Assembly: GCA_916048095.2 (NCBI GenBank)
Contig: OU696572.1
Coordinates: 3,335,862-3,399,861 of the forward strand
Length of the DNA stretch: 64,000 bases
Source: Sacculina carcini
Lineage: Eukaryota; Arthropoda; Thecostraca; Sacculinidae
Reading direction: 5' to 3'
Shown one piece after another: positions 3,679 through 62,133 of this stretch (positions are counted from its first letter, which is position 1; each line of letters starts with the position of its first letter). The notes beneath the pieces were generated by a model. It searched no databases. It had not been told where the DNA came from and saw nothing but the letters and a program-made list of their open reading frames with translations. A program made the translations under genes and the position numbers.

Positions 3679-3690
3679 GCCGAAATAGCT
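3679..3690 (-). other. Putative primer-binding site complementary to the tRNA-Phe 5' end
   Basis: On the minus strand the 12 nt directly after the LTR read AGCTATTTCGGC. The same block follows the LTRs ending at 26269, 49810 and 62121. It is the exact reverse complement of nucleotides 1-12 of known eukaryotic tRNA-Phe (GCCGAAATAGCT). The bases after it differ between elements. Confidence 0.6.
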
Positions 3691-3956
3691 TGTAGTAAAA
3701 AGTAAAATTTAGCGCTGAACCAGCAGGCAATGCACACAGTGTAATTATACACACAACAACCACAAACATGCGTACACACCGCCGCAACACAATCCGACCA
3801 TCACGCAGATCGAAAACACACTCACCCTCGTGCACACGAGCGCACACTCACACCCACTCACACACACACACACACCGTGACCTCCACGCAACCTTGACCA
3901 CACAACACACGCATGCGCACAGTAAGTTACACACAAGCACACAACACTCAACTACA
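3691..3956 (-). repeat. 5' LTR of LTR-A element (266 bp)
   Basis: The block begins TGTA and ends TACA on either strand. A second copy of the same length lies at 26004-26269 in the opposite orientation. On the minus strand it is followed directly by the 12-nt putative primer site and the gag start codon. Much of it is (CA)n-like. Confidence 0.85.
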
Positions 3957-4793
3957 CAATATCATAATATGTTGTTGGTAGCCATGGCTACGCCAAAAAC
4001 TGACAATAACGCGCGTTCGTCAGCGACAATCGAGCCCCAGCAAATTGCGTCCGAATTCGCGTAGTCTTTATAAAGACTGGTGCATGCGAGAATTGCCGAT
4101 ACAATTTGCCTTGAAAAAGGCAACGATGCGTGGAATTCGCTTTAAAGTCCGTCCTTAAAAGGACGGTTAATTATGTCGTGCAAAACGATGCGAATAGTTC
4201 TATCGGCTACTATATTCGCACGGACACGCAACACAGTAAGCAGTAGCACAGCAATGACGAGGCAGAGCAATCGAGTCGAGCGAACACAAGTCAGAAATCG
4301 AGGCGCGATAGGCGATGCACTGTGCCCAACAGCGCACGTGCTTAGTTGTGTTTTGGATTTATGTGAGTATCGGCCAATAAGCGCGCTCACCGATAGTTGT
4401 CCGATACTGGCATAAATCCGCGCTGAGTGGGTCTACTTGAGCGTTGCGCAAAATGTGCTTTTGTCGAGAACATGCTGCACCAGACAACGTTCATATATAC
4501 ATAATGTGCGACAGCGACCATATACAATTACAATGAAAACACACACTATACAATACCAACAATGCAGTACACACATGCAATCTAATACGACGATACACGA
4601 CACATATCACATATGTCAATGGCACGAATTAACACGCAAAACAATATGACTAATATTAAAGTCAGATTATGATTAAATAATAAACAATCGACACAATCCA
4701 GTTTAGAATAATAAAATAGCAGAAAGGTGTGATATGGCGCCTACAATGCAAAGGTAATAGCACACACAAATACACGCTACATTACTTTACATT
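3957..4793. repeat. Duplicated block, left copy part 1 (inverted partner near 31217-32433)
   Basis: The sequence matches, in inverse orientation, the region from about 31217 to 32433, apart from the SINE in the right copy. It shows no coding capacity. It contains three closely spaced perfect hairpins: 4063-4078, 4106-4123 and 4149-4166. Confidence 0.8.
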
Positions 4794-4877
4794 CAGTCTA
4801 TTTCTGTGCGTGTTACTGAGTGGACGTGCCTTGTCCCGTCACATGAGCCTGTGATTTTCGAGCGTGAGTGAGCAGCT

Positions 4878-5717: not shown

Positions 5718-5782
5718 CTGTTTTTTTTCTCAGCCGTATATATGTTGTGAGTGAATGGGAGCTGGTTGTGTAATGTGTATGT

Positions 5783-5998: not shown

Positions 5999-6261
5999 TG
6001 TACCGCATTTCGGTGCAGGTTCATTTACCACTGAAGTAGCATTGGACATGCAAACTCCCGAACTATGCATTACACCTTACCATTCACTTTGCTTAAACTT
6101 GCGCAGTCTCATGTATTCCGGAAAATATCAACTTGAGCTGCTCACTTCACTCTCGATATTGTGGAACCTAACTGACGTCAACTACTGTGAATACCGAAAA
6201 CAATGGCGCACCCCAGCCGCTAACCGAATTTTTCGGAGATGATGTAGATGAATCTAATGAA

Positions 6262-10440: not shown

Positions 10441-12789
10441 CTATATCAGTAACGGGTTGACATAGTCGAATCCGTCAAAGTCGCTCTGGTTGATACGTTG
10501 AATACACGTATTGTTGTCGAGTGTCAGTTGCACCGGCTCATCGGTGAACTCGGGCGGAAAGTTGGCCAGGTCGCGTTCGGTCTCGACGTGCGGCTTGTAC
10601 GGTGGTGTCAGCTGTTTTTGTTCCAGTAGCTGCCAGTCGACGCTCTTAAAGAACGCGTGTCCAAATATATCCTGGATACCGGTATCTGGATGACAGCCCA
10701 GTCGCTCCACCGGGTTCTTCTTGAGAAATCTCTTGAGGATGTTACGCGCCTCCACCGACAAGAACGGTGAAATGAGGATGGTCTTCTTGAGAGCACACCT
10801 CATACGCCATATAATTGGTGGTATGTTGGTGTCCTCATTGGACGTATGAAAATTATCGTCACTATAGGACGTATCAGAATCGTCTTCACTATAGGATGTA
10901 TCAGAATTGACGTCACTATAGGACGTATCAGAATTGTCGTCAATATCGAACGGATTGCGACCCGTCATCATCTCTAACATGAGCACGCCCAGCGACCACC
11001 AGTCCACACTGAAGTCGTAACTCTCGCCATACACAATCTCCGGCGCTATGTAGCCGGGCGTGCCGTAGAAGCCGGACGTTTTGTCGCCCGGTCGCATTCC
11101 CTGCTGGCATATGCCGTAGTCAGTGAGCTTTATATGACCCTCATGGTCTATCAGAACATTGTCCGGCTTCAGGTCACGGTGGATGATGCCTTTCTCGTGC
11201 AGAAATTTGAGCGCCACGCAAATCTCTGCCGAGTAGAACTTGGCGAGCTCCTCGGGCAGTTTGCCTTTGTCGTCCATGTGAAACGAGAGGTCGCCGCCAC
11301 GCACAAGCTCAATCACGAAAAACAGTCGACTGGGACTCTGGAAACACGAGTGCAGTCCCACCAGGAACGGGTGGTTGGACGACGTCTCAAACACGCGCTT
11401 CTCGGTGTATAATGAATCGATTTTCACGCCGTTGGTGAGCTGTTCCTTCTTTATTACTTTCATAGCGTACACGCGCCGAGTTTGTCGCAACTCCGCCATC
11501 ATGACCTTGCCGAAGCCTCCGCGTCCTATCACGCGGATCAGCTCAAAATCGGCCAGTGAGTAATTGATGGGACTTGTGACCGCGTCCGTCCAGCTGCTCG
11601 TCTCGGCCGCCGCAGGCTCCAGGTCCACACTGACCGTCTCAGTGTTTTTGCGGTCGACGACGAATTGAGACGAGAAAAGCTGAGAGCAGGGCAAAGAACA
11701 TGTCCTAGATGATGGTGGTGGTGATGGCAGTGAGGATAATGGTGGTAGTGATTTGTGTTTCAGCTGTAAATTGAATTTCACACTTGGCCTTGGCGATGAT
11801 AATGGCGACGTGTATGGGTATAATTCTGGTGATAATGTGCTTGCACATTCCACAGATCCCTCTGGTGTCGTCGACATTTTCATATCACCGGCACATGACG
11901 GTGAGAACTCATCATTTGCAAATATGACCTCATCGGTTGCATCTTGCATCTCAATGCATGGCAATTCAGGCCCAGGCTCTTCAAATTGGGTGACCACATC
12001 GCTTAATTTGTCCAGTTGATGATTGCAGAGATCCATGTGGCGAGCCTCTTCAAGCTCAGCGCCGACATTTGGGTCGTATTTGGCCAACGTATTGAGAATG
12101 TCCGTGATCGTTGATGCCATTTGATCGATATTGATCGTTTCCGAAGACTCCTGTTTGATTAAGTCAACGTAACGCACCAGTACTAGTATATTGTCCCGAT
12201 TGAGCACGATATTACTGATGGATTTCTTGTCGCCGACTATGGCCTTGAGACAGAGCACACACTGGTGTAACACCTGGTGTGCATTGGTAATTCCTGTTGA
12301 CTTTTTGCTGCTTGATTTTGATGCTTGGAAAAGCGGCATGCAGCAAGTATGAGCGGTGGTCTGCTCTTCTTGGTCGATGCGTTCTCTGGCCGACAGTATA
12401 ATGTTCATATAATCGAGCAGCACAATGACTCCTTGCTGCTGTTCTACGAAGTCTTGAAGCCACCTTATTGTGTACATTCTTAGGGAGATCTCCAAGTCTT
12501 TCATCAATGTCGTGTGCTTGCCACACATAGCCAGAACTTTGCTGGGCTTCTTGTTGGTCATTTTCGCCGAGTAGTTTTTTAGGTTGCGCACATAGTACGC
12601 TGGACATTGGCGAATTGTTTTCTTCCAGTTGGAAAGCATTGCCCACTTTGATGTGATGTTGTAGTGGACGCATATCTGTGCTGCCGGTTCGGTAACACCG
12701 GTCCAGGCGAGGTGTTTGGCAAACGCCTCCTCAATGTCGATGTTGTTGCTCATTGCTTGCATGTCTTCAGGCATATTCACCTTGAACAT
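10441..12789 (-). CDS. Chimeric protein: formin GBD/FH3-like N-terminus with atypical-PKC-like kinase (copy 1, intact)
   Basis: The intronless frame has 782 codons from ATG 12789 and is open upstream to 12864. Residues 1 to about 255 resemble the GBD/FH3 region of FMNL-type formins ([34 protein letters not shown]). An acidic, Ser/Pro-rich linker follows. From about residue 410 there is a kinase closest to atypical [31 protein letters not shown], the aPKC-type LTDYG in place of DFG, and [17 protein letters not shown]. The C-tail has the turn motif EPVQLTLD and the hydrophobic motif [14 protein letters not shown]1, PB1 and FH2 domains are absent. The activation-loop Thr of aPKC (TSTFCGTP) is Gly here (TSGFYGTP). 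A TTTAATGCAG upstream of 12850 could be a splice acceptor. The family assignments rest on recall, not a search. Confidence 0.8.
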
Positions 12790-12879
12790 TGTAGCTAAAC
12801 TGATAGTTTGTGATAAAGATGTTCCACAACCGAAATCCAGTTCAGAAATGGCTGCATTAAACACAAAGCTACTTGATTA

Positions 12880-18778: not shown

Positions 18779-18932
18779 ACTGTGAATATATTGTATGTTC
18801 TTAACTAGCGACAAATTGCTATTTTTAAGCTATTTAGAAGCTATTTAGTATTTGGTCATATGGCATATCCAATGTTTTCTATGATTGTTTTCTATGATTG
18901 TCGTATTTTTTGCGTGTCGGCTCGAATGCAAT
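18779..18932. other. Short spacer between LINE-2a and Gypsy-1a
   Basis: AT-rich, with a 12-bp tandem (TTTTCTATGATTG repeated) and the GCAAT target duplication at its end. No gene seen. Confidence 0.6.
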
Positions 18933-19248
18933 TGTAGTGCCGAGTGGCCCCGAGATGACACGCCCTTAGCCAGAACTCTAACGTATATTTAACAGAACTA
19001 AACACCGATAACAACCTGACACCTAGACGTCCCAATACCGAATGCCCCGCCTCAGTGTGTCTGTGTACCACGAAACAGTGCTTACCAGGAACAATACAAA
19101 ATGCCAACACACCTCCACGTCATTACACGTTAATTCCTAAAGCGTAACCAGAGACAAAACTGAAGCAGTATACACATAAACAAAGCTACGAGAATGAACA
19201 GCGGAACACAAACAGTTGCGCATAAACAACACAGGTAAGAACATTACA
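18933..19248 (-). repeat. Gypsy-1a 3' LTR
   Basis: 316 bp, TGTA...TACA; near-identical to the LTRs starting at 23361, 45172 and 49226. Confidence 0.95.
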
Positions 19249-19266
19249 CACCCCCACACTTAAGAA

Positions 19267-22200
19267 TTACGTGACATAGTCTCTAAACCGAGCAGGGCGT
19301 CGTCTACGACGACCTCTCGACGAAGGTGGTAACTCTTCGGGGACCGCCTCTGGCGTAATAGACTCCGGAGCCACCGCGTCTGAAGGCGACGTGTCTGCCG
19401 CGTCTGCACGGTCCGCGTCGACACCAGCTTCTGTAGTATCGGCCGGCGCTGGTTCCACTACACATTGAGGCTCGGAGGTCGACGACGGTCGGGCAGCACG
19501 AGTCGGGACCAGGTGGTGCGAATTCCGAGTAGACCCGTCTGATAGCCGGAAGGCGGAACCTTGGCGACCTATAATCTGTAAAGGCCCCCGAAATTTTCCT
19601 AGCAGTTTTGGGCACATGGCCCGGGATGCGGGCGAACACACGGTCACCAGGCTTCAGTTGCGACGGTTTTACAGCGTGACGTCGGTCGTAGTGCAACTTG
19701 TTTCGACGTTGCTGATTCTCCACCCGCTCTCGCGCTCTGTCTTCGTCCGGAGACCTCTGTTGCTGGACCACAGGCAACTTGAGCCGCATGACTCTTCCGT
19801 GCAGCATCACCGACGGTGAGTAACCAGTGGAGCAGTGCGGTGTCGCTCGATAGCTGGCCAACAGACGGCGAACACGTTCTACGACCCCGCCGTCGTGGTG
19901 GTCCTGTAGCCATGATTTAAAGGTTCGGTTAAACCGTTCTACGGCTCCGTTACCTTGAGGCCAGTAAGCTGACGATCGGTGATGAGTGATATCGCGTTCA
20001 GTGAGGTAGGTTTCGAACTGCTCACTGGTGAACGGAGTACCGTTGTCAGTCACTAGGGACTCGGGGTACCCTTCCCGAGACCAAACGCTGTCCAAGAAGC
20101 AGATAATATTAGTTGATTCGGTAGAAGCCATCAGCCCGACCTCGGCCCACTTGGAAAAATAATCAATCAGCGTCACAGCATACCTGCAGTCAGCCGGCGC
20201 AGACCGTATTGGGCCGACGATGTCGACTCCGAGCTTCATCCATGGTTGTCCCGGAAATTCGACCGGCTGTAGAGGCTCTGTTCGGACGCGGCTGCTGAGA
20301 GTTTTGTCGCTAGAACAGCACTTCTCACACTCCGAGACGATCCGTGTGACGTCTGCGTCCAGGCCAGGCCACCAAGCTACTGCGCGCAGCAGTTGTTTGC
20401 ACCGCACAATGCCGTCGTGTGACGAGTGTGCGTGCTGCAGATACTTTTGCCGTAGACTGTATGGCACCACCACCTGAGTAGCCGCCCTGATCACGAGTTC
20501 GCCGTCGGTAGAGAGCTCGTGTCGCATCGGGAAAAACGGTTTGACAGCTGGCTCGCAGTCTTTTGCCGATTTGGGGAAACCGTGCCGTAACCAGTGACGC
20601 ACTGCTATCAACTGCGAGTCCTTCAAAGACGACTCACGCAGCTTCTCCCTGGACACACAGTTCTCTTCCTCGGACAACAGCGCGATTACCTCGAAGTCGT
20701 CATCCGCGGCTGTTACTACGTCCTCGGCAGCAGCATCCAGTGGAAGTCGGGATAGCGCGTCGGCACCTGGCAACCGATCGCCTGGCACGTACTGGACGGT
20801 ATACGAAAAAGGCATCAGTCGCGCCTGCCAACGGGCGACTCGGGCACCAGCACGTCCAGTGAACCGGGCAGACAGCACCGACTGCAACGCTGAGTGATCA
20901 GTTCTGAGCGTAAAATGCCGTCCCCACAAAAAATTACGCCACTTCTCGACTGCTTGTATCGCCGCCAGAGCCTCACGTTCCGTCACGGAGTAGTTGGCTT
21001 CGCTGGCCGTGAACCGACGACTCCACATCGCCACGACGCGCTCTACACCCTGGGCGTCGGCCTGCGATAACACAGCACCGGCACCCTTCTCGCTGGCGTC
21101 CGTGGTGACGAATGTGGTCTTTTTCAAGTCGAACGGTTGTAACGGTTGAGCGGCCTCGATACGTTTTTTTAGCAGCTCGAAGGCGGTGATCTGACGTTCA
21201 CCCCATACGAAACTCATGTTCTTCCGCAGCAGCTCGAACAGAGGGGACGTCACCTCGGCGTACCCCGGCACGAATTTAGCCACCCAGCCGCAGAGTCCCA
21301 GAAAACTCCGTAGTTCCTTGACGTTCTCGGGAGCCGGAGCGTCGCGAATGGCAAGAAGGTGATCGTCTGACAGAGAGACTCCTTCTCCCGACAGAAAAAA
21401 TCCGCAGAATTTTATGCGGGTCTGCGCCTCGGTAGATTTTTCTGTGTTAAGCGTTACGTTGGCCTCCTGCAGTCGTTTCTTGACCAGGGACAGGCGTTCA
21501 TCATGCAGTTGTCGACTAGGTCCACATACGACGATGTCGTCTAAATAGTGGCAACAGCCAGGAATGCCTTCCAGCAGACGGTCCAACAAGCGTTGGAACG
21601 CTGCTCCAGCTGAGACGAGCCCAAACGGCACTCGCCGGAATTGAAAAAGGCCGTCCTGTGTTATGAACGCCGTAATGTTCTTCGATTGTGGGTCCAGCTT
21701 CATCTGGTGGTATGCGCAGCGTACGTCGAGATGGGAGAAATACCGTCCGTTCAATTGTGATTGCAGCTCCTCCAGCGTCGGTAGAGGGTGCACCTCGTCC
21801 ACAATCTGACTGTTGGGCCCTCTGAGGTCCACGCACAGTCTGATCTCGCCGGAACGTTTCCGCGCGACGACAATCGGACTCACCCAGGGTGAGGCGTCCA
21901 CGCGCTCTATGATGCCCTGAGCAAGCAGTTTTCTCAACTCTGCCGAAACATCACTCTGTATGGAGAGCGGCAGTCTACGGAGTGGAATTCGCGTAGGCAC
22001 AGCTGATGATTTCAGCCGGATCCGGTGTCGGTAGCCGACGATCGAAGGTAGCTCCTCTGTTTTCGACGATTTTGTTGTCGAGACTGCAGCGATCAGCCCA
22101 CGGTCCGGATGTATGGTGAGACCTAGCATCGAGAGTGCGTCAAGTCCCAGCAGTCCCTCGGACGCGTTGGTGTCGACGATGTAAAACTCGACCGAAGCCG

Positions 22201-23296
22201 TGTGGGAGCCGACGGACACCTGTGTAGGCAAAACCCCGACCACTTTTAGCGGTTGGCGGCCAACGCCAAATAGTCTAGTTGAGGTTGAATGCACCGGCGT
22301 ACCCTTAAAATGCTGACGCGCCAGTGGCAGGCTCAGCACACACACACTCGCTCCGGTGTCGATTTGCAGCTGCACCTCAGCGGAGCGACCAGAATCCACC
22401 GTCAGTCTGGCATCACAGGAAAGACGCTTGGTCTTGTCGGCGCTGCAGGACAGGATCGTGACGCCTTTCACCGGTCCATAACGTCTCACGTTGGTTGCTC
22501 GCCTGTCGTCGGTGGAGTCTGACGACTGACAGACAGCCGCCCAGTGGCCCTTGCGACCACATTTGTTGCAGATCGAGTCTTTTGCTGGACAGTGCTGTTG
22601 TCGGGGATGGTTGTGCCGTCGACCACAGTGTGTACAGGATGTTGACGAGCGCGCAGGCGGATGACGCGCTGGTGTGCTAGTGGCGTTGGGTTTGCCCCTG
22701 AAACGTACCTTGTTCGCCACAGCGTGCGGTGTACCGTCGTCCTTGGCTGTCCCTGTCATCTGAGCAGACTGTTTCAATGACATTTCGTACGCGGTGGCGA
22801 CGGCGAGGAGAGAGTCCAGCGTCAACCTGGAATCCTGTAAGAACCTCTCCCGCAACCGTGGGTGGCGTGTGTGTTCGACAACCTGGTCTCGTATGAGTTC
22901 ATCCGTCAGGGTGCCGAAACTGCACTTCACCGCCAGACCTCGAAGAACTGATACGTAGTCGCTTGTCGACTCAGCCTCGTCTTGTCTGCGCTGTCTAAAA
23001 GTGAAGCGTTCAACGATCACGTTGACTTTAGGGGAGTAATGAGCGCCGATAATTCTTCTGGCTTGGTCGTAGTGACTCTCGCTTTCCCGCTTCGTCTCCG
23101 CTGGCAGACTCAGGTACGCTCGCCGGGCTTCGTTGCCGATGCAGTGAATTAACATGGCCTTTCGTCGGTCGTCGCTGAAATTCTCACCTCCGATCGCCAG
23201 AAGGTAATTTTCAAAATCATATATCCAGTTAGACCACGGAGTTTGTGGCGTACCCGGGCTTTGCAAGAATGGTTGCGGAGCGCACACCCCTTCCAT
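19267..23296 (-). CDS. Gypsy-1a Gag-Pol polyprotein, one late frameshift
   Basis: The single frame starts at ATG 23296 (MEGVCAPQPFLQ). Order: gag domain; two zinc knuckles (CTHCGRRHNHPRQQHC, CNKCGRKGHWAAVC); protease (QIDTGASVCVLSL); RT (LCVDLRGPNSQIVDEVHPLP, FGLVSAGAAFQ, YLDDIVV); RNase H (TTDASEKGAGAVLS, TDHSALQ); integrase zinc region (HSSHDGIVRCKQLL, CEKCC); integrase core D-D-E (GVDIVGPI, TDNGTPFTS, GAVERFNRTFK). Near 19594-19598 this copy has TTTT where Gypsy-1b has TTT. The extra base shifts the integrase tail, so the original C-terminus continues in another frame to 19267. All catalytic residues lie upstream of the shift. Confidence 0.93.
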
Positions 23297-23360
23297 TGCA
23301 AGCGTTCAGAAATAACGAAAAATTTGAAAAAGGCACGTAGAAAACTTACTCGTCGCCAAT

Positions 23361-23676
23361 TGTAGTGCCGAGTGGCCCCGAGATGACACGCCCTTAGCCA
23401 GAACTCTAACGTATATTTAACAGAACTAAACACCGATAACAACCTGACACCTAGACGTCCCAATACCGAATGCCCCGCCTCAGTGTGTCTGTGTACCACG
23501 AAACAGTGCTTACCAGGAACAATACAAAATGCCAACACACCTCCACGTCATTACACGTTAATTCCTAAAGCGTAACCAGAGACAAAACTGAAGCAGTATA
23601 CACATAAACAAAGCTACGAGAATGAACAGCGGAACACAAACAGTGGCGCATAAACAACACAGGTAAGAACATTACA
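23361..23676 (-). repeat. Gypsy-1a 5' LTR
   Basis: 316 bp. It differs from the partner LTR by one base (CAGTGGCG here, CAGTTGCG in the other). Confidence 0.95.
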
Positions 23677-26003: not shown

Positions 26004-26269
26004 TGTAGTTGAGTGTTGTGTGCTTGTGTGTGATTTACTGTGCACATGCGTGTGTTGTGTGGTCAAGGCTGCGTGGAGGGCACGGTGTTTGTGTGGGTGT
26101 GAATGGGTGTGAGTGTGCGCCCGTGTGCACGAGGGAGAGTGTGTTTTCGATCTGCGTGATGGTCGGATTGTGTTGCGGCGGTGTGTACGCATGGTTGTGG
26201 TTGTTGTGTGTGTAATTACACTGTGTGCATTGCCTGCTGGTTCACCGTTAAATTTTACTTTTTACTACA
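26004..26269 (+). repeat. LTR-A 5' LTR (second copy)
   Basis: 266 bp, TGTA...TACA, homologous to 3691-3956 in opposite orientation. The sequence around 56240-56290 shows the left flank continuing without an LTR. No matching 3' LTR is visible downstream in the window. Confidence 0.85.
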
Positions 26270-26281
26270 AGCTATTTCGGC
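26270..26281 (+). other. Putative tRNA-Phe 5'-end primer-binding site
   Basis: AGCTATTTCGGC immediately after the LTR, identical to 3679-3690 (minus), 49811-49822 and 62122-62133. Confidence 0.6.
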
Positions 26282-26282
26282 T

Positions 26283-26409
26283 ATGAATGAGAGGGGTAAG
26301 CCGCTAAGTGGCCAGGTACAGCAGGCATGGCAGGGACTGTTGTTTGATATGCGCATAATCCCCGAGTATGACGGCTCTGGTGATGTTGTCGAGTGGTGGA
26401 CACGGACAG
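26283..26409 (+). pseudogene. LTR-A gag stub, 42 codons, joined to chimeric kinase copy 2
   Basis: It starts with ATG (MNERGKPLSGQV) and runs through PEYDGSGDVVEWWTRT, matching the gag N-terminus of the left LTR-A element without its 17-nt duplication. At 26409/26410 the homology ends and the FH3/aPKC chimera begins, in a different reading frame. No gag or pol sequence follows. Confidence 0.85.
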
Positions 26410-28985: not shown

Positions 28986-28989
28986 TGGC

Positions 28990-30351
28990 CAAGTGTGAAA
29001 TTCAATTTACAGCCGACACACAAATCACTGCCACCATTATCCTCACTGTCATCGCCATCACCATAATCTAGGACATGTTCGTTGCCTTGTTCTCAGCTTG
29101 TCTCGTCTCAACTCAACGTCGACCGCAACAACACTGAGACGGTCAGTGTGGACCTGGAGCCTGCGGCGGCCGCGACAAGCAGCTGGACGGACGTGGTCGC
29201 AATTCCCACCAATTACTCACTGGCCGATTTTGAGCTGATCCGCGTGATTGGACGCGGCGGCTTCGGCAAGGTCATGATGGCGGAGTTCCGACAAACTCGG
29301 CGCCTGTACGCCATGAAAGTGATAAGGAAGGAACCGCTCACCAACGGTGCGAAAATCGATTTATTATACACCGAGAAGCGCGTGTTTGAGACGGCGTCGA
29401 ACCACCCGTTCCTCGTGGGACTGCATTCGTGTTTCTAGAGTCCCAGTCGACTGTTTTTCGTGATTGAGCTTGTGCGTGGCGGCGATCTCTCGTTTCACAT
29501 GGACGACAAAGGCAAACTACCCGAGGAGCTCGCCAAGTTCTACTCGGCTGAGATTTGCGTGGCGCTCAAATTTCTGCACGAGAAAGGCATCATCCACCGT
29601 GACCTGAAGCCGGAAAATGTGCTGATAGACCACGAGTGTCATATCAAGCTCACTGACTACGGCATATGCAAGCAGGGAATGCGACCGGGCGACAGAACGT
29701 CCGGCTTCTTCGGCACGCCCGGCTACATAGCGCCGGAGATTGTGTATGGCGAGAGTTACGACTTCAGTGTGGACTGGTGGTCGCTGGGCGTGCTCATGTT
29801 AGAGATGATGACGGGTCGCAATCCGTTCAATATTGACGACAATTATGATACGTCTTATAGTGACGACGATTCTGATACATCCTATAGTGACGTCAATTCT
29901 GATACGTTCTATAGTGACGAGAATTTTCATACGTCCAATGAGGACACCAGCATACCACCAATTATATGGTGTATGAGGTGTGCTCTCAAGAAGACCATCT
30001 TCATTCCGCCGTTCTTGTCGGTGGAGGCGCGTAACATCATCAAGGGATTTCTCAAGAAGAACCCGGTGGAGCGACTGGGCTGTCATCCAGATACTGGTAT
30101 CCAGGATATATTTGGACACGCGTTCTTTAAGAGCGTCGACTGGCAGCTACTGGACCAAAAAACAGCTGACACCACCGTACAAGCCGCACGTCGAGACCGA
30201 ACGCGACCTGGCCAACTTTCCACCCGGGTTCACCGATGAGCCGGTGCAACTGACACTCGACAACAATACGTGTATTCAACGTATCAACCAGAGAGACTTT
30301 GACGGATTCGACTGTTGAAAAATGCAACATGTCAACCCGTTACTGATATAG
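28990..30351 (+). pseudogene. Chimeric kinase, copy 3, lacking the FH3-like part, broken
   Basis: The sequence resumes inside the Ser/Pro linker directly after copy 2, giving a tandem arrangement. The kinase N-lobe ([29 protein letters not shown]) is open to a CAG to TAG change at about 29436. The catalytic part (29460-30170) keeps [19 protein letters not shown] and [10 protein letters not shown]. One extra A in a run near 30165 shifts the frame, and the final motif is interrupted by a short insertion with a stop (DGFDC, then stop) before VNPLL reappears. The aPKC activation-loop Thr is again Gly (TSGFFGTP). The 3' flank is shared with copy 1. Confidence 0.85.
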
Positions 30352-45171: not shown

Positions 45172-45487
45172 TGTAGTGCCGAGTGGCCCCGAGATGACAC
45201 GCCCTTAGCCAGAACTCTAACGTATATTTAACAGAACTAAACACCGATAACAACCTGACACCTAGACGTCCCAATACCGAATGCCCCGCCTCAGTGTGTC
45301 TGTGTACCACGAAACAGTGCTTACCAGGAACAATACAAAATGCCAACACACCTCCACGTCATTACACGTTAATTCCTAAAGCGTAACCAGAGACAAAACT
45401 GAAGCAGTATACACATAAACAAAGCTACGAGAATGAACAGCGGAACACAAACGGTGGCGCATAAACAACACAGGTAAGAACATTACA
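45172..45487 (-). repeat. Gypsy-1b 3' LTR
   Basis: 316 bp, TGTA...TACA, near-identical to the Gypsy-1a LTRs. Confidence 0.95.
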
Positions 45488-45505
45488 CACCCCCACACTT
45501 AAGAA

Positions 45506-48500
45506 TTACGTGACATAGTCTCTAAACCGAGCAGGGCGTCGTCTACGACGACCTCTCGACGAAGGTGGTAACTCTTCGGGGACCGCCTCTGGCGTAATAG
45601 ACTCCGGAGCCACCGCGTCTGAAGGCGACGTGTCTGCCGCGTCTGCACGGTCCGCGTCGACACCAGCTTCTGTAGTATCGGCCGGCGCTGGTTCCACTAC
45701 ACATTGAGGCTCGGAGGTCGACGACGGTCGGGCAGCACGAGTCGGGACCAGGTGGTGCGAATTCCGAGTAGACCCGTCTGATAGCCGGAAGGCGGAACCT
45801 TGGCGACCTATAATCTGTAAAGGCCCCCGAAATTTCCTAGCAGTTTTGGGCACATGGCCCGGGATGCGGGCGAACACACGGTCACCAGGCTTCAGTTGCG
45901 ACGGTTTTACAGCGTGACGTCGGTCGTAGTGCAACTTGTTTCGACGTTGCTGATTCTCCACCCGCTCTCGCGCTCTGTCTTCGTCCGGAGACCTCTGTTG
46001 CTGGACCACAGGCAACTTGAGCCGCATGACTCTTCCGTGCAGCATCACCGACGGTGAGTAACCAGTGGAGCAGTGCGGTGTCGCTCGATAGCTGGCCAAC
46101 AGACGGCGAACACGTTCTACGACCCCGCCGTCGTGGTGGTCCTGTAGCCATGATTTAAAGGTTCGGTTAAACCGTTCTACGGCTCCGTTACCTTGAGGCC
46201 AGTAAGCTGACGATCGGTGATGAGTGATATCGCGTTCAGTGAGGTAGGTTTCGAACTGCTCACTGGTGAACGGAGTACCGTTGTCAGTCACTAGGGACTC
46301 GGGGTACCCTTCCCGAGACCAAACGCTGTCCAAGAAGCAGATAATATTAGTTGATTCGGTAGAAGCCATCAGCCCGACCTCGGCCCACTTAGAGAAATAA
46401 TCAATCAGCGTCACAGCATACCTGCAGTCAGCCGGCGCAGACCGTATTGGGCCGACGATGTCGACTCCGAGCTTCATCCATGGTTGTCCCGGAAATTCGA
46501 CCGGCTGTAGAGGCTCTGTTCGGACGCGGCTGCTGAGAGTTTTGTCGCTAGAACAGCACTTCTCACACTCCGAGACGATCCGTGTGACGTCTGCGTCCAG
46601 GCCAGGCCACCAAGCTACTGCGCGCAGCAGTTGTTTGCACCGCACAATGCCGTCGTGTGACGAGTGTGCGTGCTGCAGATACTTTTGCCGTAGACTGTAT
46701 GGCACCACCACCTGAGTAGCCGCCCTGATCACGAGTTCGCCGTCGGTAGAGAGCTCGTGTCGCATCGGGAAAAACGGTTTGACAGCTGGCTCGCAGTCTT
46801 TTGCCGATTTGGGGAAACCGTGCCGTAACCAGTGACGCACTGCTATCAACTGCGAGTCCTTCAAAGACGACTCACGCAGCTTCTCCCTGGACACACAGTT
46901 CTCTTCCTCGGACAACAGCGCGATTACCTCGAAGTCGTCATCCGCGGCTGTTACTACGTCCTCGGCAGCAGCATCCAGTGGAAGTCGGGATAGCGCGTCG
47001 GCACCTGGCAACCGATCGCCTGGCACGTACTGGACGGTATACGAAAAAGGCATCAGTCGCGCCTGCCAACGGGCGACTCGGGCACCAGCACGTCCAGTGA
47101 ACCGGGCAGACAGCACCGACTGCAACGCTGAGTGATCAGTTCTGAGCGTAAAATGCCGTCCCCACAAAAAATTACGCCACTTCTCGACTGCTTGTATCGC
47201 CGCCAGAGCCTCACGTTCCGTCACGGAGTAGTTGGCTTCGCTGGCCGTGAACCGACGACTCCACATCGCCACGACGCGCTCTACACCCTGGGCGTCGGCC
47301 TGCGATAACACAGCACCGGCACCCTTCTCGCTGGCGTCCGTGGTGACGAATGTGGTCTTTTTCAAGTCGAACGGTTGTAACGGTTGAGCGGCCTCGATAC
47401 GTTTTTTTAGCAGCTTGAAGGCGGTGATCTGACGTTCACCCCATACGAAACTCATGTTCTTCCGCAGCAGCTCGAACAGAGGGGACGTCACCTCGGCGTA
47501 CCCCGGCACGAATTTAGCCACCCAGCCGCAGAGTCCCAGAAAACTCCGTAGTTCCTTGACGTTCTCGGGAGCCGGAGCGTCGCGAATGGCAAGAAGGTGA
47601 TCGTCTGACAGAGAGACTCCTTCTCCCGACAGAAAAAATCCGCAGAATTTTATGCGGGTCTGCGCCTCGGTAGATTTTTCTGTGTTAAGCGTTACGTTGG
47701 CCTCCTGCAGTCGTTTCTTGACCAGGGACAGGCGTTCATCATGCAGTTGTCGACTAGGTCCACATACGACGATGTCGTCTAAATAGTGGCAACAGCCAGG
47801 AATGCCTTCCAGCAGACGGTCCAACAAGCGTTGGAACGCTGCTCCAGCTGAGACGAGCCCAAACGGCACTCGCCGGAATTGAAAAAGGCCGTCCTGTGTT
47901 ATGAACGCCGTAATGTTCTTCGATTGTGGGTCCAGCTTCATCTGGTGGTATGCGCAGCGTACGTCGAGATGGGAGAAATACCGTCCGTTCAATTGTGATT
48001 GCAGCTCCTCCAGCGTCGGTAGAGGGTGCACCTCGTCCACAATCTGACTGTTGGGCCCTCTGAGGTCCACGCACAGTCTGATCTCGCCGGAACGTTTCCG
48101 CGCGACGACAATCGGACTCACCCAGGGTGAGGCGTCCACGCGCTCTATGATGCCCTGAGCAAGCAGTTTTCTCAACTCTGCCGAAACATCACTCTGTATG
48201 GAGAGCGGCAGTCTACGGAGTAGAATTCGCGTAGGCACAGCTGATGATTTCAGCCGGATCCGGTGTCGGTAGCCGACGATCGAAGGTAGCTCCTCTGGTT
48301 TCGACGATTTTGTTGTCGAGACTGCAGCGATCAGCCCACGGTCCGGATGTATGGTGAGACCTAGCATCGAGAGTGCGTCAAGTCCCAGCAGTCCCTCCGA
48401 CGCGTTGGTGTCGACGATGTAAAACTCGACCGAAGCCGTGTGGGAGCCGACGGACACCTGTGTAGGCAAAACCCCGACCACTTTTAGCGGTTGGCGGCCA

Positions 48501-49168
48501 ACGCCAAATAGTCTAGTTGAGGTTGAATGCACCGGCGTACCCTTAAAATGCTGACGCGCCAGTGGCAGGCTCAGCACACACACACTAGCTCCGGTGTCGA
48601 TTTGCAGCTGCACCTCAGCGGAGCGACCAGAATCCACCGTCAGTCTAGCATCACAGGAAAGACGCTTGGTCTTGTCGGCGCTGCAGGACAGGATCGTGAC
48701 GCCTTTCACCGGTCCATAACGTCTCACGTTGGTTGCTCGCCTGTCGTCGGTGGAGTCTGACGACTGACAGACAGCCGCCCAGTGGCCCTTGCGACCACAT
48801 TTGTTGCAGGTCGAGTCTTTTGCTTGACAGTGCTGTTGTCGGGGATGGTTGTGCCGTCGACGACAGTGTGTACAGGATGTTGACGAGCACGCAGGCGGAT
48901 GACGCGCTGGTGTGCTAGTGGCGTTGGGTTTGCCCCTGAAACGTACCTTGTTCGCCACAGCGTGCGGTGTACCGTCGTCCTTGGCTGTCCCTGTCATCTG
49001 AGCAGACTGTTTCAATGACAGTTCGTACTTGGTGGCGACGGCGAGGAGAGAGTCCAGCGTCAGCCTGGAATCCTGTAAGAACCTCTCCCGCAACCGTGGG
49101 TGGCGTGTGTGTTCGACAACCTGGTCTCGTATGAGTTCATCCGTCAGGGTGCCGAAACTGCACTTCAC
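45506..49168 (-). CDS. Gypsy-1b Gag(C-part)-Pol frame, uninterrupted
   Basis: The 1220-codon frame runs from the middle of gag (MKCSFGTLTDELIRDQVVEH) through both zinc knuckles (second CNKCGRKGHWAAVC), protease (QIDTGASVCVLSL), RT (YLDDIVV), RNase H (TTDASEKGAGAV) and integrase (GVDIVGPI, TDNGTPFTS, GAVERFNRTFK) to a full C-terminus (RPARFRDYVT). Unlike Gypsy-1a it has no frameshift in the integrase tail. The first roughly 100 gag residues and the normal start codon are missing, so capsid assembly would have to come from another copy. Differences from Gypsy-1a are few. Confidence 0.9.
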   Translation of the reverse strand: MKCSFGTLTDELIRDQVVEHTRHPRLRERFLQDSRLTLDSLLAVATKYELSLKQSAQMTGTAKDDGTPHAVANKVRFRGKPNATSTPARHPPACSSTSCTHCRRRHNHPRQQHCQAKDSTCNKCGRKGHWAAVCQSSDSTDDRRATNVRRYGPVKGVTILSCSADKTKRLSCDARLTVDSGRSAEVQLQIDTGASVCVLSLPLARQHFKGTPVHSTSTRLFGVGRQPLKVVGVLPTQVSVGSHTASVEFYIVDTNASEGLLGLDALSMLGLTIHPDRGLIAAVSTTKSSKPEELPSIVGYRHRIRLKSSAVPTRILLRRLPLSIQSDVSAELRKLLAQGIIERVDASPWVSPIVVARKRSGEIRLCVDLRGPNSQIVDEVHPLPTLEELQSQLNGRYFSHLDVRCAYHQMKLDPQSKNITAFITQDGLFQFRRVPFGLVSAGAAFQRLLDRLLEGIPGCCHYLDDIVVCGPSRQLHDERLSLVKKRLQEANVTLNTEKSTEAQTRIKFCGFFLSGEGVSLSDDHLLAIRDAPAPENVKELRSFLGLCGWVAKFVPGYAEVTSPLFELLRKNMSFVWGERQITAFKLLKKRIEAAQPLQPFDLKKTTFVTTDASEKGAGAVLSQADAQGVERVVAMWSRRFTASEANYSVTEREALAAIQAVEKWRNFLWGRHFTLRTDHSALQSVLSARFTGRAGARVARWQARLMPFSYTVQYVPGDRLPGADALSRLPLDAAAEDVVTAADDDFEVIALLSEEENCVSREKLRESSLKDSQLIAVRHWLRHGFPKSAKDCEPAVKPFFPMRHELSTDGELVIRAATQVVVPYSLRQKYLQHAHSSHDGIVRCKQLLRAVAWWPGLDADVTRIVSECEKCCSSDKTLSSRVRTEPLQPVEFPGQPWMKLGVDIVGPIRSAPADCRYAVTLIDYFSKWAEVGLMASTESTNIICFLDSVWSREGYPESLVTDNGTPFTSEQFETYLTERDITHHRSSAYWPQGNGAVERFNRTFKSWLQDHHDGGVVERVRRLLASYRATPHCSTGYSPSVMLHGRVMRLKLPVVQQQRSPDEDRARERVENQQRRNKLHYDRRHAVKPSQLKPGDRVFARIPGHVPKTARKFRGPLQIIGRQGSAFRLSDGSTRNSHHLVPTRAARPSSTSEPQCVVEPAPADTTEAGVDADRADAADTSPSDAVAPESITPEAVPEELPPSSRGRRRRRPARFRDYVT

Positions 49169-49225
49169 CGCCAGACCTCGAAGAACTGATACGTAGTTGC
49201 TTGTAATCCCACCTTCGTCGCCAAT

Positions 49226-49541
49226 TGTAGTGCCGAGTGGCCCCGAGATGACACGCCCTTAGCCAGAACTCTAACGTATATTTAACAGAACTAAACACCG
49301 ATAACAACCTGACACCTAGACGTCCCAATACCGAATGCCCCGCCTCAGTGTGTCTGTGTACCACGAAACAGTGCTTACCAGGAACAATACAAAATGCCAA
49401 CACACCTCCACGTCATTACACGTTAATTCCTAAAGCGTAACCAGAGACAAAACTGAAGCAGTATACACATAAACAAAGCTACGAGAATGAACAGCGGAAC
49501 ACAAACAGTGGCGCATAAACAACACAGGTAAGAACATTACA
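49226..49541 (-). repeat. Gypsy-1b 5' LTR
   Basis: 316 bp, TGTA...TACA. On the minus strand it is followed by ATTGGCGACGA and then non-homologous filler. Confidence 0.95.
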
Positions 49542-49546: not shown

Positions 49547-49729
49547 CTAAGCCGCCTCATATTTAAACTTGCCCGTCGTGCTGAATAATTCAGAACTTAG
49601 ACACAAAACAATGAAAAATTACTGCACTTTTCATCATAATGTTTCCAAAATATTTTTATAACTTATCATCACCGTCTAGCATTGAAACCCGCCAGTTGTG
49701 CGGAGCAATTCATAAAACGAAATTCATAT
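49547..49729. repeat. Satellite-like AT-rich repeat, segment 2
   Basis: Continues the array after Gypsy-1b with the GCCCGTCGTGCTGAATAATT motif. Interrupted at CATAT by TRIM-1. Collinear with 51481-51660. Confidence 0.75.
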
Positions 49730-50955
49730 TGTAGGCGCGCGTGGGGCGGTGATGCCCACGCGCGCCTGTCTGTAATATAATTTAGATTTTTAGTCCCTGG
49801 TTTTGTTACAAGCTATTTCGGCCTTTTTGTTTTGGAATTATTTTTGTCTGCGACCCGGCTTCAGCAGCGGAGATGGTGCCTTCCAGCATCAGTAGCGGCC
49901 TACCAGCGGAGAACAGCGGTGGAGGTGCTCGGTGGCGTGTCAGGTTGGTGTGCAGGGGGACGGCAGTGCAGCATGATGCCGGCGGGAGGCAGCTGAGGAG
50001 CTGTGGCCGAGGGATGCTGGTCGTCTCGCCTGCACTGGTGTAAGGCACGTCGCCGGGCAACTACAGGATTGTCGGTGGAGGCGACGATCGCTCGTGGAGG
50101 ATGCTGGTGCTGGATGGCAGGTGACAGAGAGGGGCTGCTGAAGCCGGAAGAAAACATGACGAACGACGGCGACGGCGTGGCCTGTGTGAGCGGCGACGTC
50201 CCGGCTGTTTGCGGCAGGGTGCTGAAGAGCACTAGAGTCGACGGGAGCATAGTGGGTGCTGGGGTCGAAGTGTTGTGCCCTGTCGCGGCTGCCGGTGATG
50301 AAGAGGACGGCAGGCTGCGGCGGAGCACTGAAGAGTACTGGCGAGGCGGGAGCGTGGTGGATGCTGGGCCTGACGTGTTGTGTTTCGCCGCAGCCAAGGT
50401 GTGTGCATCTGGTGGAGGCCGTCGTCTAATTAGATTTTGGTTATTGGTTCATTTTTCCTGGTTTGCTTGGTTCGCGGTTTTTTGTTGATTTATGTTTCTT
50501 TAAAAACAGGTGGAGGTGTGGTGTAATCGTGTGTAGTGAGAGAGAGAGTGTGTGTGTGAAAGATTGTGAGTGCGTGAACGTGTTAGTGTGTCTATGTGTG
50601 ATCGTGTATAGTTGAATTGTATATTGCGTGCGAGAGTGTGTGAGCGAGTGTGTCTAGTTGTTTCGGTTTGTGTGTGTGCAGTTGTTTCGGTGTGTGTGTG
50701 TGTATGCGTTTGTGAATTGTCCATGCCCCGCAGCGGCGAGTGAATGACCGGCTCGCCGCTGATTGGTTGTTGCGGCGGGTGAGGACTGTGTGTGTGTGTG
50801 TGTCCGTGTGTGCTCCCGTGTGACACGGTGTGAGCGGACAGTCTTGTTCGTGGTGCGATTGTGGTGTGACGTCTTGTAGGCGCGCGTGGGGCGGTGATGC
50901 CCACGCGCGCCTGTCTGTAATATAATTTAGATTTTTAGTCCCTGGTTTTGTTACA
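49730..50955 (+). mobile_element. TRIM-1: miniature LTR retrotransposon with 81-bp LTRs
   Basis: Two identical-looking 81-bp repeats (49730-49810 and 50875-50955, TGTA...TACA) are flanked by the 5-bp duplication CATAT (49725-49729 and 50956-50960). Inside the LTR, GGCGCGCGTGGG pairs with CCCACGCGCGCC around a 9-nt loop. The primer block AGCTATTTCGGC follows the first LTR directly. The 1.06-kb interior is GC-rich with internal near-repeats and no gag or pol motif. The open frames at 50003-50488 (plus) and 49900-50397 (minus) overlap and look like composition artefacts. The 3' interior is (TG)n-rich. It fits a TRIM mobilised in trans. Confidence 0.9.
49811..49822 (+). other. Putative tRNA-Phe 5'-end primer-binding site of TRIM-1
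   Basis: AGCTATTTCGGC immediately after the 5' LTR, as in LTR-A and LTR-B elements. Confidence 0.6.
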
Positions 50956-50960
50956 CATAT

Positions 50961-55976: not shown

Positions 55977-55981
<5 letters not shown>

Positions 55982-56017: not shown

Positions 56018-56018
<1 letters not shown>

Positions 56019-58995: not shown

Positions 58996-60498
58996 ATGCC
59001 TGTAATGACGAACGCTGATTGTTCGGTGTGCAACACACCGTCCAGCGATATTTCGTGTGGACTCTGTGGGCAGCACCTGCACAAAAAGTGCATCAATGTC
59101 TCAGCAGGTTTGCTGCGACAAATCGCAAAATCTTCACTCCGTTGACACTGCATGGATTGCCATGAAAAGTTATCCTTGATTGCTGACAATCATCGCCCAT
59201 TCACAAGATCTTCTGACGGTGGCCTCATCACCGGGATGAGTCCATCTCTCGAAAAACAAATTGACACCAAGATATCCACAGCTGTTGCTGCACTGAGGGC
59301 TGAGTTTATGGATTCACTTGATAACGCCACCAATATACCTCCTGTCGCCGCCACTGATGATCCTGTCACCGCCACTGCTCCTGTCGCCGCCACTGCTCCT
59401 GTCGCCGCCACTGCAGCTCCTGTCACCGCCACCGCTGATCCTGTCGCCGCCACCGCTGATCCTGTCGCCGCCACTGCTGCTGTCACCGCCACTGCTGCTG
59501 TCACCGCCGCTGATCCTGTCACCGCCACTGCTGCTGTCACCGCCACTGCTGCTGTCACCGCCACTGCTGCTGTCACCGCCACCGCTGATCCTGTCGCCGC
59601 CACTGCTGCTGTCACCGCCACTGCTGCTGTCACCGCCACTGCTGCTGCTGTCGACGCCACTGCTGCACCTGCGCCTGCAAGTACTTTAACCTCTGCCGTC
59701 ACTACCCGCAAAACATTTTGTGATGGTCATAACGGTAATTTGTCTGCGGTGGGTGGTTTGGCTCCGAAGATAAATGCATCGTACACATGCATTCTGAAAT
59801 CTGATTCTGTGTCAAGCGAGCAAATTGCGTCTGCCCTATCCAATATCCCTATTAGGGGTGTCTCAAAAACTGAGACAGCATTTGTGATCAAATGCGACTC
59901 CGCCTCCGGTGTGGCATTGACCATGAATTCCCTGTCGAAATCTTTCCCAAATTCCGACATATCACAGCCTTCTCGAGCCCCTATTACGCCTAAGATCACT
60001 ATTCCCAACATTCCTCCTAGTTTGTCTTCCAATGCTCTTGTTGAATCAATATCCGCCAAAAATCCGTCGCTCTCCCCGTTCATAGAGGATGGAAGCATGA
60101 AGTTCTTGTTCTTCACTTTCGCTAAGTCTAATTCGCGCTGTGCTGTTTTTGCCGTGACCCCCATTTGTCGAGATGCCATACGCGTCCTTGGGGACAGAGT
60201 ATACGCCCACCTTTCATGTCTCCCTGTACACTCTAGATACTGGATTTCTTGTTGTAAATCGTGCCTAGGCCTGGGTCACAGTGCTTCCAAGTGTCGCTCC
60301 AGACCATCCTCCCCTAGGTGCGGTCACTGTGCCGGCACACATCCTTCTTCCCAATGTCATGATCGTGGCAACCCAAAATGCTACAGATGTAGTTTAGCAG
60401 GGTTGATGTCTCACCACTCCGCCTTCTCGCTATCTTGCCCTTCATTTGTTGACGCCATTGTTGACTTGAAACAACGTACTGAGGATTCAAAAAACTGA
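58996..60498 (+). pseudogene. LINE-2b ORF1 with one nonsense mutation
   Basis: Start ATG 58996 in the same context as LINE-2a. The PHD-like finger is interrupted by TGA at 59143-59145, where LINE-2a has TGG (Trp). Downstream the frame is open, with a shorter Ala/Thr repeat (59340-59665) and intact zinc knuckles (CCKSCLGLGHSASKC, CGHCAGTHPSSQC). It ends TCA AAA AAC TGA at the frameshift heptamer. Confidence 0.9.
60489..60495 (+). promoter_or_regulatory. Predicted -1 frameshift heptamer A AAA AAC (LINE-2b)
   Basis: Zero-frame heptamer directly before the ORF1 stop (60496-60498). The -1 frame continues CTG ATT CTG into ORF2. Confidence 0.6.
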
Positions 60499-61480
60499 TT
60501 CTGAATGCTTTGATCCCAGTGAGCCCTCGCACCACCTTTCCTTCCGTCACTTCAATTATTCCTGGTGTCTCTGAATGGGAAATTAAGCCACAAATTGGCC
60601 TTCTCAACATTCGATCGGCCAGGAATAAGGTTTCTTACCTCACTGATCTCCTTTCAAGATATGACCTAGACTTCCTTTGCCTCACGGAAACTTGGTTACA
60701 AGATCTGGAATGTAACTCTTTCCTGGCGGCTTTACCTTCCTCATACTCTTTTTTGCACGCGTCGAGGTCTTCCTCGTCACATCACTCCAATGGCGGTGGT
60801 GTTGGTATAGTTTTTCGCAAACCTTATTCTGCCCGCAAACATCAAACACTCACATTTGTTCCCATATCCTTTGAATACTTATCCCTAGTCACACATTACT
60901 CCTATGGCAAAATATTTTGTATTTCTATTGTCTACAGGCATAATCACGCAGGGACATTGCCTGCTTTCTTCGATGAGTTCTCTGCACTCATTGAGAATTT
61001 GACTGCGACATTCTCTGATTCTTTCGCTATCTTAGGGGACTTTAATTTCTGGACAAATGTGTCCCCTCCAACTCCATCGACCCACAGATTCCTATCTCTT
61101 ATAGATTCTTATGCACTTTCTCTACTCCCAAATTGTCCCACGCATATATCTGGCCACACACTAGACGTTGTTCTCGTTCCCTCTCCTCTCTTCATGCCCA
61201 ACACTAGTAACCCCCTAGTGCAGGTTCTGCCACCTGATCAAAACATTTCCGACCACTCCCTGTTGCTGATTACCCTACCTACTCTCCATTCAACTCCTAC
61301 AATCCAGGCGGATTCCAAAACTATTTCCTTCCATGATTATCGGGTGTATGATCATGGCACGTTCTCATTTTACTTCGCTCAGTTCCTTCCGCCTCTTAGC
61401 TTCTTAAATGTACCTGCTGAACTCCTGGAGTCATTTTTAGACTCGCGGCTTTCTGCTATCCGAGATTTGCTTTTTCCTAT
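60495..61480 (+). pseudogene. LINE-2b ORF2, endonuclease part only
   Basis: Contains the EEP endonuclease (LLNIRSARNKVSYL, LTETWLQD, GGGVGIVFRK, LGDFNFW, SDHSLLLI), almost identical to LINE-2a. The frame is cut by the LTR at 61481 before the RT. Confidence 0.9.
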
Positions 61481-62121
61481 TGTAATTTCACAGTGTTCAT
61501 CCGAGGCGCCAGAGCGAGCGATGCGCGAGTTGTTCCGATATATTGAACGTTTGCTTACATGACATTCAACGTTTGTATGTCTGTGTGTCTGTATACACGC
61601 GCAGCACTGGTCGCGTTGGCAGAGGCCGTGTATGTGTGTGTGCAGTCACGTGTTTGTGTGGCTGTGGTCCTTGCGCGAGCGGTAGATGTTTGTTTGTGAA
61701 TGCGTGCGTGTCTGTATGCGCAGCACTGGTTATACAGGCAGATGGTGTGCACGTGTGTGTATGTGTGTGCATGTGAGTGTGTGTGTGCGTGTGCATGTGT
61801 GCGCGTGTGCGTCTATCCTGTACTGTCTTGGTGGCGATGTAACTGGGGGAAGTATGGGCAGTGTAAAGGGGGTGCGATGACGCGTTGAGTTTCATGGGCA
61901 GTCGAGATCAAGCGTTCATGGTGTGAGTGTGAACGGTGCGCGGAAGCTTTGAGTGAGAGTGTACGGCGGGGTGCCGAGCGCGTTGTTCTTGGTGTTTTGT
62001 ACTCGTTTCCGCGGTGTGAATATCGAGCGTTGTGTGTATTTACTCGGTGTCATATTGTGCTATTGTGTGATTGTGTTATATATATTTCATCGTCCATCAT
62101 TTGTTCTCCAATACAACTACA
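61481..62121 (+). repeat. 5' LTR of LTR-B element (641 bp)
   Basis: Begins TGTAATTTCACAG and ends AACTACA, directly before the primer block. The left boundary is fixed by comparison with LINE-2a. (TG)n-rich in the middle. Confidence 0.8.
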
Positions 62122-62133
62122 AGCTATTTCGGC
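62122..62133 (+). other. Putative tRNA-Phe 5'-end primer-binding site of LTR-B
   Basis: AGCTATTTCGGC between LTR end and the gag ATG two bases later; fourth occurrence of this block in the window. Confidence 0.6.

Follow-up and report, generated by a model that had tools for sequence, protein, structure and literature searches.

What primes minus-strand DNA synthesis in a long terminal repeat (LTR) retrotransposon when the sequence behind its 5′ LTR matches the wrong end of a tRNA? This question is raised by a 64,000-nucleotide stretch of the Sacculina carcini genome (contig OU696572.1, positions 3,335,862 to 3,399,861; the whole stretch is hereafter called the window), where four retroelement copies, A to D, carry the same 12-nucleotide (nt) block, AGCTATTTCGGC, beside an LTR end. 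The first-pass annotation had read the block as the complement of the first 12 nt of tRNA-Phe and proposed a 5′ fragment of that tRNA as the primer. Our analysis favors this proposal. We estimate a probability of roughly 0.7 that the block serves as minus-strand primer binding site (PBS) in a large LTR-retrotransposon lineage, composed of elements with a DUF7047 gag-pol and of miniature, non-autonomous relatives, and that its primer is the 5′-terminal 12 nt of tRNA-Phe. The 5′ fragment is supported as primer by the position of the block, its conservation among independently chosen copies, the lack of a sense partner in the LTRs, a variable base at its far edge, and pieces of tRNA-Phe in element-like DNA.

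A 12-nt block directly past the 5′ LTR

The block is found at 3690-3679 on the minus strand and at 26270, 49811, and 62122 on the plus strand, the four places reported earlier; each copy directly follows TACA, and the window holds no further site with up to one mismatch. The mean chance expectation is 0.17 sites, and none of 100 shuffles reached four. The block complements nt 1-12 of metazoan tRNA-Phe without a mismatch; the reference is a published Northern probe for the 5′ portion of Drosophila tRNA-Phe(GAA), whose end, CTGAGCTATTTCGGC, has the same 12 letters (PMC7038984). By analogy, nt 1-12 of the host tRNA-Phe would read GCCGAAATAGCT.

The abundance of this motif extends far beyond the window. 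In the 264-Mb, 43-contig host assembly, the one species' assembly on which our genome evidence is based, we counted 1844 exact sites of ACAAGCTATTTCGGC, compared with 0.49 expected at equal base frequencies and none for the reversed control. When the two bases after ACA were left free (ACANNCTATTTCGGC), 1844 of 1893 sites carried AG, corresponding to nt 11-12 (six for the reversed control), so that pairing most likely reaches nt 12. ACAAGCTATTTCGGC also occurs in 33 IMG/VR stretches, with an LTR-like repeat in 0 of the 31 that were testable, and, among prokaryote genomes, in no fewer than 116 stretches; we take these occurrences as chance.

Within the elements, the block occupies the PBS position, directly past the terminal CA of the 5′ LTR. 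Among 53 flanked sites surveyed, 13 had an LTR pair within reach, and a target-site duplication was readable in six of these (six others were cut off or in tandem, and L018 had none). The duplications are of 5 bp in L005 (ATATC), L021 (GTCGG), L024 (ATTCT), and element C of the window (CATAT), and of 4 bp in L047 (GAAG) and L010 (CCAC); in all six elements the LTR runs from TG to CA and the block begins at the very next base, leaving a gap of 0 nt. A polypurine tract, caacaggggggag, precedes the 3′ LTR of element D, and AAAAACAGGTGGAGG precedes that of L005, L010, L018, L024, and L021 (in the last, with the boundary 2 bases off); the purine stretch at L040 reads gacgggggcg, and no tract is evident in L047 or element C, as cut. 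Given their paired TG...CA LTRs, duplications, and polypurine tracts, the block-bearing sequences are LTR retrotransposons. The LTRs of the miniature elements measure 392 (L005), 426 (L018), 435 (L024), 455 (L021), and 138 bp (L010). At one locus (L039/L040, G000:C23, about 7751600-7755700) a miniature element is arranged in tandem, as LTR-internal-LTR-internal.

We also looked for a conventional site beginning with TGG directly after these LTRs; it is absent, and AGCTATTTCGGC stands there instead. Such an arrangement does occur in this genome, since in a Ty3-type family of the window the TGG site follows the LTR with two nucleotides (AT) in between. Its PBS, TGGCGACGA, partially matches the 3′ end of a tRNA ending GTGGTCGCCA (8 and 10 of 12). 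The features of the window are:

3679..3690, minus strand: PBS of element A, AGCTATTTCGGC, followed by C and an ATG
3691..3956, minus strand: 3′ portion of A's 5′ LTR, up to the limit of its match with B (inverted pair I5)
1558..3597, minus strand: gag-pol frame of element A; Pfam protease (RVP) and DUF7047
26004..26269, plus strand: end of the LTR of element B, a member of A's family (inverted pair I5)
26270..26281, plus strand: PBS of element B, followed by T and an ATG
49725..49729, no strand: target-site duplication CATAT of element C; second copy at 50956-50960
49730..49810, plus strand: 5′ LTR of miniature element C, 81 bp, apparently truncated
49811..49822, plus strand: PBS block of miniature element C
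50875..50955, plus strand: 3′ LTR of element C, final 81 bp
61476..61480, no strand: target-site duplication CCTAT of element D, within a copy of a long interspersed nuclear element (LINE); second copy past the window end
61481..62121, plus strand: 641-bp 5′ LTR of element D; its 3′ LTR, beyond the window, is identical
62122..62133, plus strand: PBS of element D, abutting the CA that ends the LTR
62134, plus strand: variable base of family D, adjoining the complement of tRNA-Phe nt 1
62135..62890, plus strand: start of gag of element D, its ATG one base beyond the block
18929..23676, minus strand: conventional Ty3-type element; LTR followed as ...CTACA-AT-TGGCGACGA, a normal tRNA 3′-end type site
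45172..49541, minus strand: second copy of the conventional Ty3-type element, with the identical AT-TGGCGACGA site

The window elements had previously been described as three families with LTRs of 266, 641, and 81 bp. Only the 641-bp length stands, with a full 3′ match for 61481-62121. Elements A and B, 96% alike over 356 bp, form one family for which we found no LTR pair, and the 266 bp are merely the extent of their match. The 81-bp LTR of C looks like a 5′-truncated copy, as related miniature LTRs are mostly far longer; by eye, the sequence preceding its 3′ copy resembles the interior of longer miniature LTRs. Element D offers the clearest insertion: two inverted LINE copies (15919-17736 and 59663-61480) are identical over 1818 nt, D interrupts one of them at 61480/61481 with CCTAT on both sides, and the other is an empty site with a single CCTAT and no element. 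The LTRs of D are identical (641/641), as are 17 of 40 scored miniature copies over 166 bp (100%), and from such identity the elements look recently active.

Conservation of the block and the base beside it

We grouped a sample of 74 sites, namely the first 70 of 100 listed genome sites, all from one contig (C1), and the four window sites. They fell into 27 groups by the 145 bases before the block, which represent LTR ends, and into 17 groups by the 145 bases after it. With one representative per LTR-end group, information content was low outside ACA and the block, and conservation fell off immediately past the block. Since these sites were found through the block itself, its conservation among them is a selection criterion, and we therefore additionally chose miniature copies by the DNA further downstream (705 candidates; 20 of 40 scored matches fetched). 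ACA and the exact block were present in 20 of 20, with differing U5 ends. Similarly, the exact block was present in 10 of 10 LTR pairs of family D chosen without reference to it: window element D and nine pairs fetched from 14 that lie about 4.3 kb apart. The nine further pairs all carry it past the 5′ LTR, preceded by ACA in eight and ACC in one. In sum, the block is exact in all 30 copies chosen in these two ways and common to the 27 LTR-end groups. In one family D copy (L329/L330, G000:C11:7309667-7314014), the 5′ LTR ends in ACC and its own 3′ LTR in ACA, a change located exactly at the primer junction.

The first-pass annotation had also stated that homology stops at tRNA nt 1 and that the four elements differ at the next base. 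The match does end at nt 1, and the following base differs even within a family, being C in A and T in B. Likewise, the ten family D copies have A in four, C in five, and T in one, with LTR ends matching at 97-100%. We evaluated this pattern on 123 distinct sites, 74 of which fell in families of at least two members at a clustering threshold of 0.8, with singletons dropped. The base past nt 1 varied in 7 of 15 families, while variation at positions +4 to +20 was seen in only 0-3 of the 15 (Fisher test, p=2.2e-4, a rough value for the reasons given below); other thresholds gave 7/15 (p=0.0015) and 4/14 (p=0.0023). Such variability would be expected if the plus strand were extended beyond the primer's 5′ end, leaving an untemplated base.

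Pieces of tRNA-Phe itself were recovered from the assembly. A BLAST search with the whole tRNA gave only two matches, both 3′ halves that start at nt 38 and match canonical tRNA-Phe: nt 38-72 at L046 (33/35) and nt 38-67 at L047 (30/30). A58, which is usually methylated, reads T at L046. Inverted repeats lie 28-115 bases away in L046 and 153-854 in L047, where an LTR element is inserted between them. At L046, the TTTCGGC of the tRNA acceptor strand sits where the PBS normally ends in miniature elements, and past it the miniature internal region continues in register (alignment score of 88 with element C of the window, at most 27 in 100 shuffles; offsets 28 and 29). Such a junction could have arisen if synthesis had jumped from element RNA onto tRNA-Phe at the common TTTCGGC, an event that would place canonical tRNA-Phe together with the reverse transcriptase.

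A second type of junction was seen in the miniature copy L112, which reads GC-CGAAAT-AGCTATTTCGGC where another, L308, reads GC-TACA-AGCTATTTCGGC. It looks like a primer dimer, in which two 12-mers paired through their AGCU ends and were extended, and it is the sole overlapping palindrome pair among the listed GCCGAAATAGCTR sites. Two further loci have unusual sequences at the block: at L316 (G000:C1:13321842-13321901), CTACAAGCTATT is repeated past an intact block and runs into internal sequence, resembling a mis-annealed strand transfer, and at L111 (G000:C22:3902485-3902669), AGCTATTTC is doubled right before the block, resembling primer slippage.

Weighing the identity of the primer

We considered several other explanations for the block. 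That the elements prime themselves in the manner of Tf1, from the LTR-encoded 5′ end of their own RNA, is suggested by primer length, 11 nt in the relevant part of the Tf1 account (PMC7175516) and 12 nt here. As noted previously, the LTRs contain no sense copy: none is present in the window with up to one mismatch, and the best sense matches in eight LTRs (6-8 of 12) are no better than those of shuffles, which average 6.6-7.4. Self-priming was therefore rejected for the tested LTRs; it is refuted for them unless the RNA 5′ end originates outside the LTR, and as a general account it is hardly credible. A related possibility is that another host or element RNA containing GCCGAAAUAGCU serves as the primer, such as a small RNA or a trans-spliced leader, the latter being a Tf1-like reaction with a leader from elsewhere. 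Both the absence of a sense sequence in the tested LTRs and our failure to find a tRNA-Phe gene in the assembly would fit it. Against it, inspection by eye of all 15 GCCGAAATAGCTC sites, 20 of 31 GCCGAAATAGCTR sites, and 70 of the 1844 main sites revealed no repeated gene-like copy outside the LTR-end context, the 3′ halves within element-like DNA point to tRNA-Phe, and by our own arithmetic the chance that an arbitrary 12-mer fits the 5′ end of any of about 50 tRNAs is roughly 3 in a million. We regard such a primer as unlikely.

Two other explanations concern the block itself. The tRNA-Phe primer might extend only to nt 10, with AG as a 2-nt spacer trimmed by integrase, just as the conventional family of the window has AT between CA and TGG. 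Yet AG corresponds to nt 11-12 and is present in 1844 of 1893 sites as well as in the 30 copies chosen without reference to the block, the palindrome at L112 is centered on AGCT, as predicted for a primer ending at U12, and the computed duplex would be weaker with 10 bp (-13.7 kcal/mol) than with 12 (-18.7 kcal/mol); this variant, too, seems improbable. Alternatively, the block could be a conserved functional motif (for packaging, translation start, or integrase contact) that resembles tRNA-Phe by accident, with priming occurring elsewhere. In keeping with this, one base separates the block from the gag ATG in family D, an ATG lies within about 10 bases of the block at 38 of 74 sites, and TGG trinucleotides occur 28 (A/B), 11 (C), and 36 (D) bases past it. 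However, the left edge of the block is the exact LTR end, which is defined by primer position; the match stops exactly at tRNA nt 1, where the next base is the variable one; and the inner TGG sites match the 3′ ends of 14 compared tRNAs, a set that omits most host tRNAs, at only 6-8 of 12. In addition, the tRNA-Phe 3′-end site, TGGTGCCGAAA, occurs once in 1.5 Mb compared, mostly bacterial and phage DNA. We consider an accidental match very unlikely.

Several observations weigh against tRNA-Phe as the primer. Most importantly, we did not find its gene in the assembly, whether through nt 1-13, BLAST with the whole tRNA, the D-arm with the GAA anticodon (3 mismatches), the anticodon arm, the T-arm with TTTCGGC, or the GAA loop with the T-loop. 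The last of these gave 8 matches compared with 7 for the control, judged from the printed match alone, and ARAGORN called no tRNA at the 15 nt 1-13 sites or at six anticodon-arm sites. Other tRNAs were recovered in comparable searches; a search with RF00005 scored 63 of 15013 candidates and is thus not evidence of absence. Because every animal needs tRNA-Phe, the assembly is probably incomplete at this gene. Additionally, a duplex of 12 bp, worth -18.7 kcal/mol, has a competitor in the tRNA cloverleaf (-21.9 kcal/mol by the same computation), so that nucleocapsid-type help or prior cleavage is probably needed. At the base where the primer would run off, the miniature family is nearly invariant (C in 32 of 33), position +2 is also elevated (varying in 4 of 15 families), and the p-values are rough because columns +4 to +20 are partly coding and columns of the same family are non-independent. 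Lastly, both L046 and L047 lie in rearranged DNA that contains distant inverted repeats, L046 additionally requires either a switch or a primer that ends at nt 7, and L112 is a single locus that palindrome-templated DNA repair could also explain.

We also examined whether the primer is longer than 12 nt. Complementarity extends to nt 13 (GCCGAAATAGCTC) at just 15 genome sites, seven of which have G before the block as ACG, while 20 sites read among the 31 of GCCGAAATAGCTR had T in six (ACT) and C in four (ACC). A 13-nt primer was rejected, as G is not clearly favored over T or C. At L038 (G000:C19:3038829-3041841), ATG replaces ACA before the block and is the complement of nt 13-14, which may reflect one 14-nt primer event or chance. 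Comparing the 5′ ends of 14 tRNAs with 0.66 Mb yielded a single 11-nt match, at L063.

The proteins encoded by these elements were compared with known families. The gene order of element A, which in a Ty3/gypsy-like (Metaviridae-type) element would be protease, reverse transcriptase, RNase H, and integrase, was read by eye from its translations. Its open reading frame (1558-3597, minus strand) gave no Pfam RVT_1 match at E 0.001, and its homologues list RVT_1, RNase H, integrase, and DUF7047. We obtained 88 homologues by scoring the 7996 candidates sharing most words; the 32 with a species name come from the barnacle Amphibalanus (18), Trichinella (8), Trichuris (4), Pollicipes (1), and Watersipora (1). 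In a comparison with PDB, the window frame itself had no match, and the alignment had weak matches to retroviral and Ty3 integrase and reverse transcriptase. No DUF7047 relatives were confirmed in viral contigs. A tRNA-Cys called by ARAGORN within the pol frame of A (2735-2831, minus strand) is absent from the Rfam listing and probably spurious. Elsewhere in the window, inverted copies about 93% similar (10441-12864, minus strand; 26368-30239, plus strand) encode Drf_GBD and protein kinase domains; the second adjoins the LTR, primer site, and a short gag remnant of element B, as if captured by a retroelement.

A proposed priming cycle and known systems

The favored explanation can be phrased as a cycle. 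tRNA-Phe would enter the particle, where nt 1-12 pair with the PBS, and would then be cleaved on the 3′ side of nt 12 (before nt 13), whether by the RNase H of the element at the end of the 12-bp duplex or by a host nuclease. Minus-strand synthesis would proceed from U12, a start that matches the observed position of the block and would make the LTR end directly at it. Plus-strand strong-stop synthesis would subsequently copy the primer to nt 1, run off, and often add an untemplated base before the second strand transfer, giving the variability seen there. In such a cycle the 12-nt site would be rewritten from the tRNA every time, which would explain why the same stretch is found in unrelated LTRs. 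In Tf1, the PBS pairs with the transcript of the element itself over its first 11 bases, and this RNA is cleaved by RNase H between bases 11 and 12, according to the portion of the source used here (PMC7175516), and the simplest model for our elements would be this reaction with nt 1-12 of tRNA-Phe as the paired RNA. The broadest form of the proposal, a whole animal LTR lineage with a fourth priming mode (a paired tRNA-Phe 5′ end, a Tf1-like cut after nt 12, an extended 12-mer, and a later run-off that leaves a hypervariable base in many families), has in our judgment about even chances.

If confirmed, a 12-nt 5′-terminal tRNA fragment would add another primer type, give 5′ tRNA fragments a role as primers of DNA synthesis, and provide a mechanistic link between tRNA priming and self-priming. 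By our own reasoning, it could also account for LTR elements seemingly devoid of a PBS, since TGG sites are what search tools expect. With the variable base next to the PBS, a diagnostic that requires only a genome becomes usable in any species, and because the elements look recently active, the idea is testable on living animals.

The known priming types are tRNA 3′ ends, anticodon half-tRNAs, and self-priming (PMC5371799, PMC10886601, PMC6317226), the same three into which plant LTR elements have been sorted (PMC6317226), as far as the sections drawn upon go. We found no report of a tRNA 5′-end primer in the open-licence literature, which misses most subscription papers. The suggestion that this is a new priming mode accordingly holds within the literature searched; it is partly a matter of degree, as 3′-truncated tRNA primers are described for copia and Ty5 in the parts of two of these papers relied on here (PMC5371799; PMC10886601).

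With conventional 3′-end priming, our elements share a PBS after the 5′ LTR, a polypurine tract, target-site duplications, and, by inference, a host tRNA as primer; they differ in having no TGG start, no spacer, and complementarity to the opposite end of the tRNA. LTR elements that lack a recognized PBS, namely the fungal GalEa Copia elements and the bivalve terminal-repeat retrotransposons in miniature (PMC5445492, PMC6934838), resemble ours in showing no recognized TGG-type site in the excerpts consulted. There, a hairpin (GalEa) or no clear mechanism (the bivalve elements) is reported, whereas here the site matches a tRNA 5′ end exactly over 12 nt.

Half-tRNA priming, known from Drosophila copia, yeast Ty5, plant Osser, Bryco, and Bianca, and fungal Copia and Helenus elements (PMC5371799, PMC6317226, PMC10886601), is similar in that the primer there, and by our model here, derives from a tRNA without its 3′ part and the PBS after the 5′ LTR does not match the tRNA 3′ end. 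In those Copia lineages, as presented in the passages available, the PBS pairs with the anticodon-loop region; in our DUF7047 gag-pol elements the complementarity is to nt 1-12 and not to the anticodon arm used in copia and Ty5, and would imply a cut in the D-stem. Tf1 and sushi elements also use an extreme RNA 5′ end of nearly the same length, perhaps freed in both cases by a cut at the duplex end, with the difference that in Tf1 it belongs to the element's own transcript (PMC7175516), and here probably to a tRNA, the tested LTRs having no sense copy. Our best reading is a new variant of truncated-tRNA priming, and possibly a class of its own.

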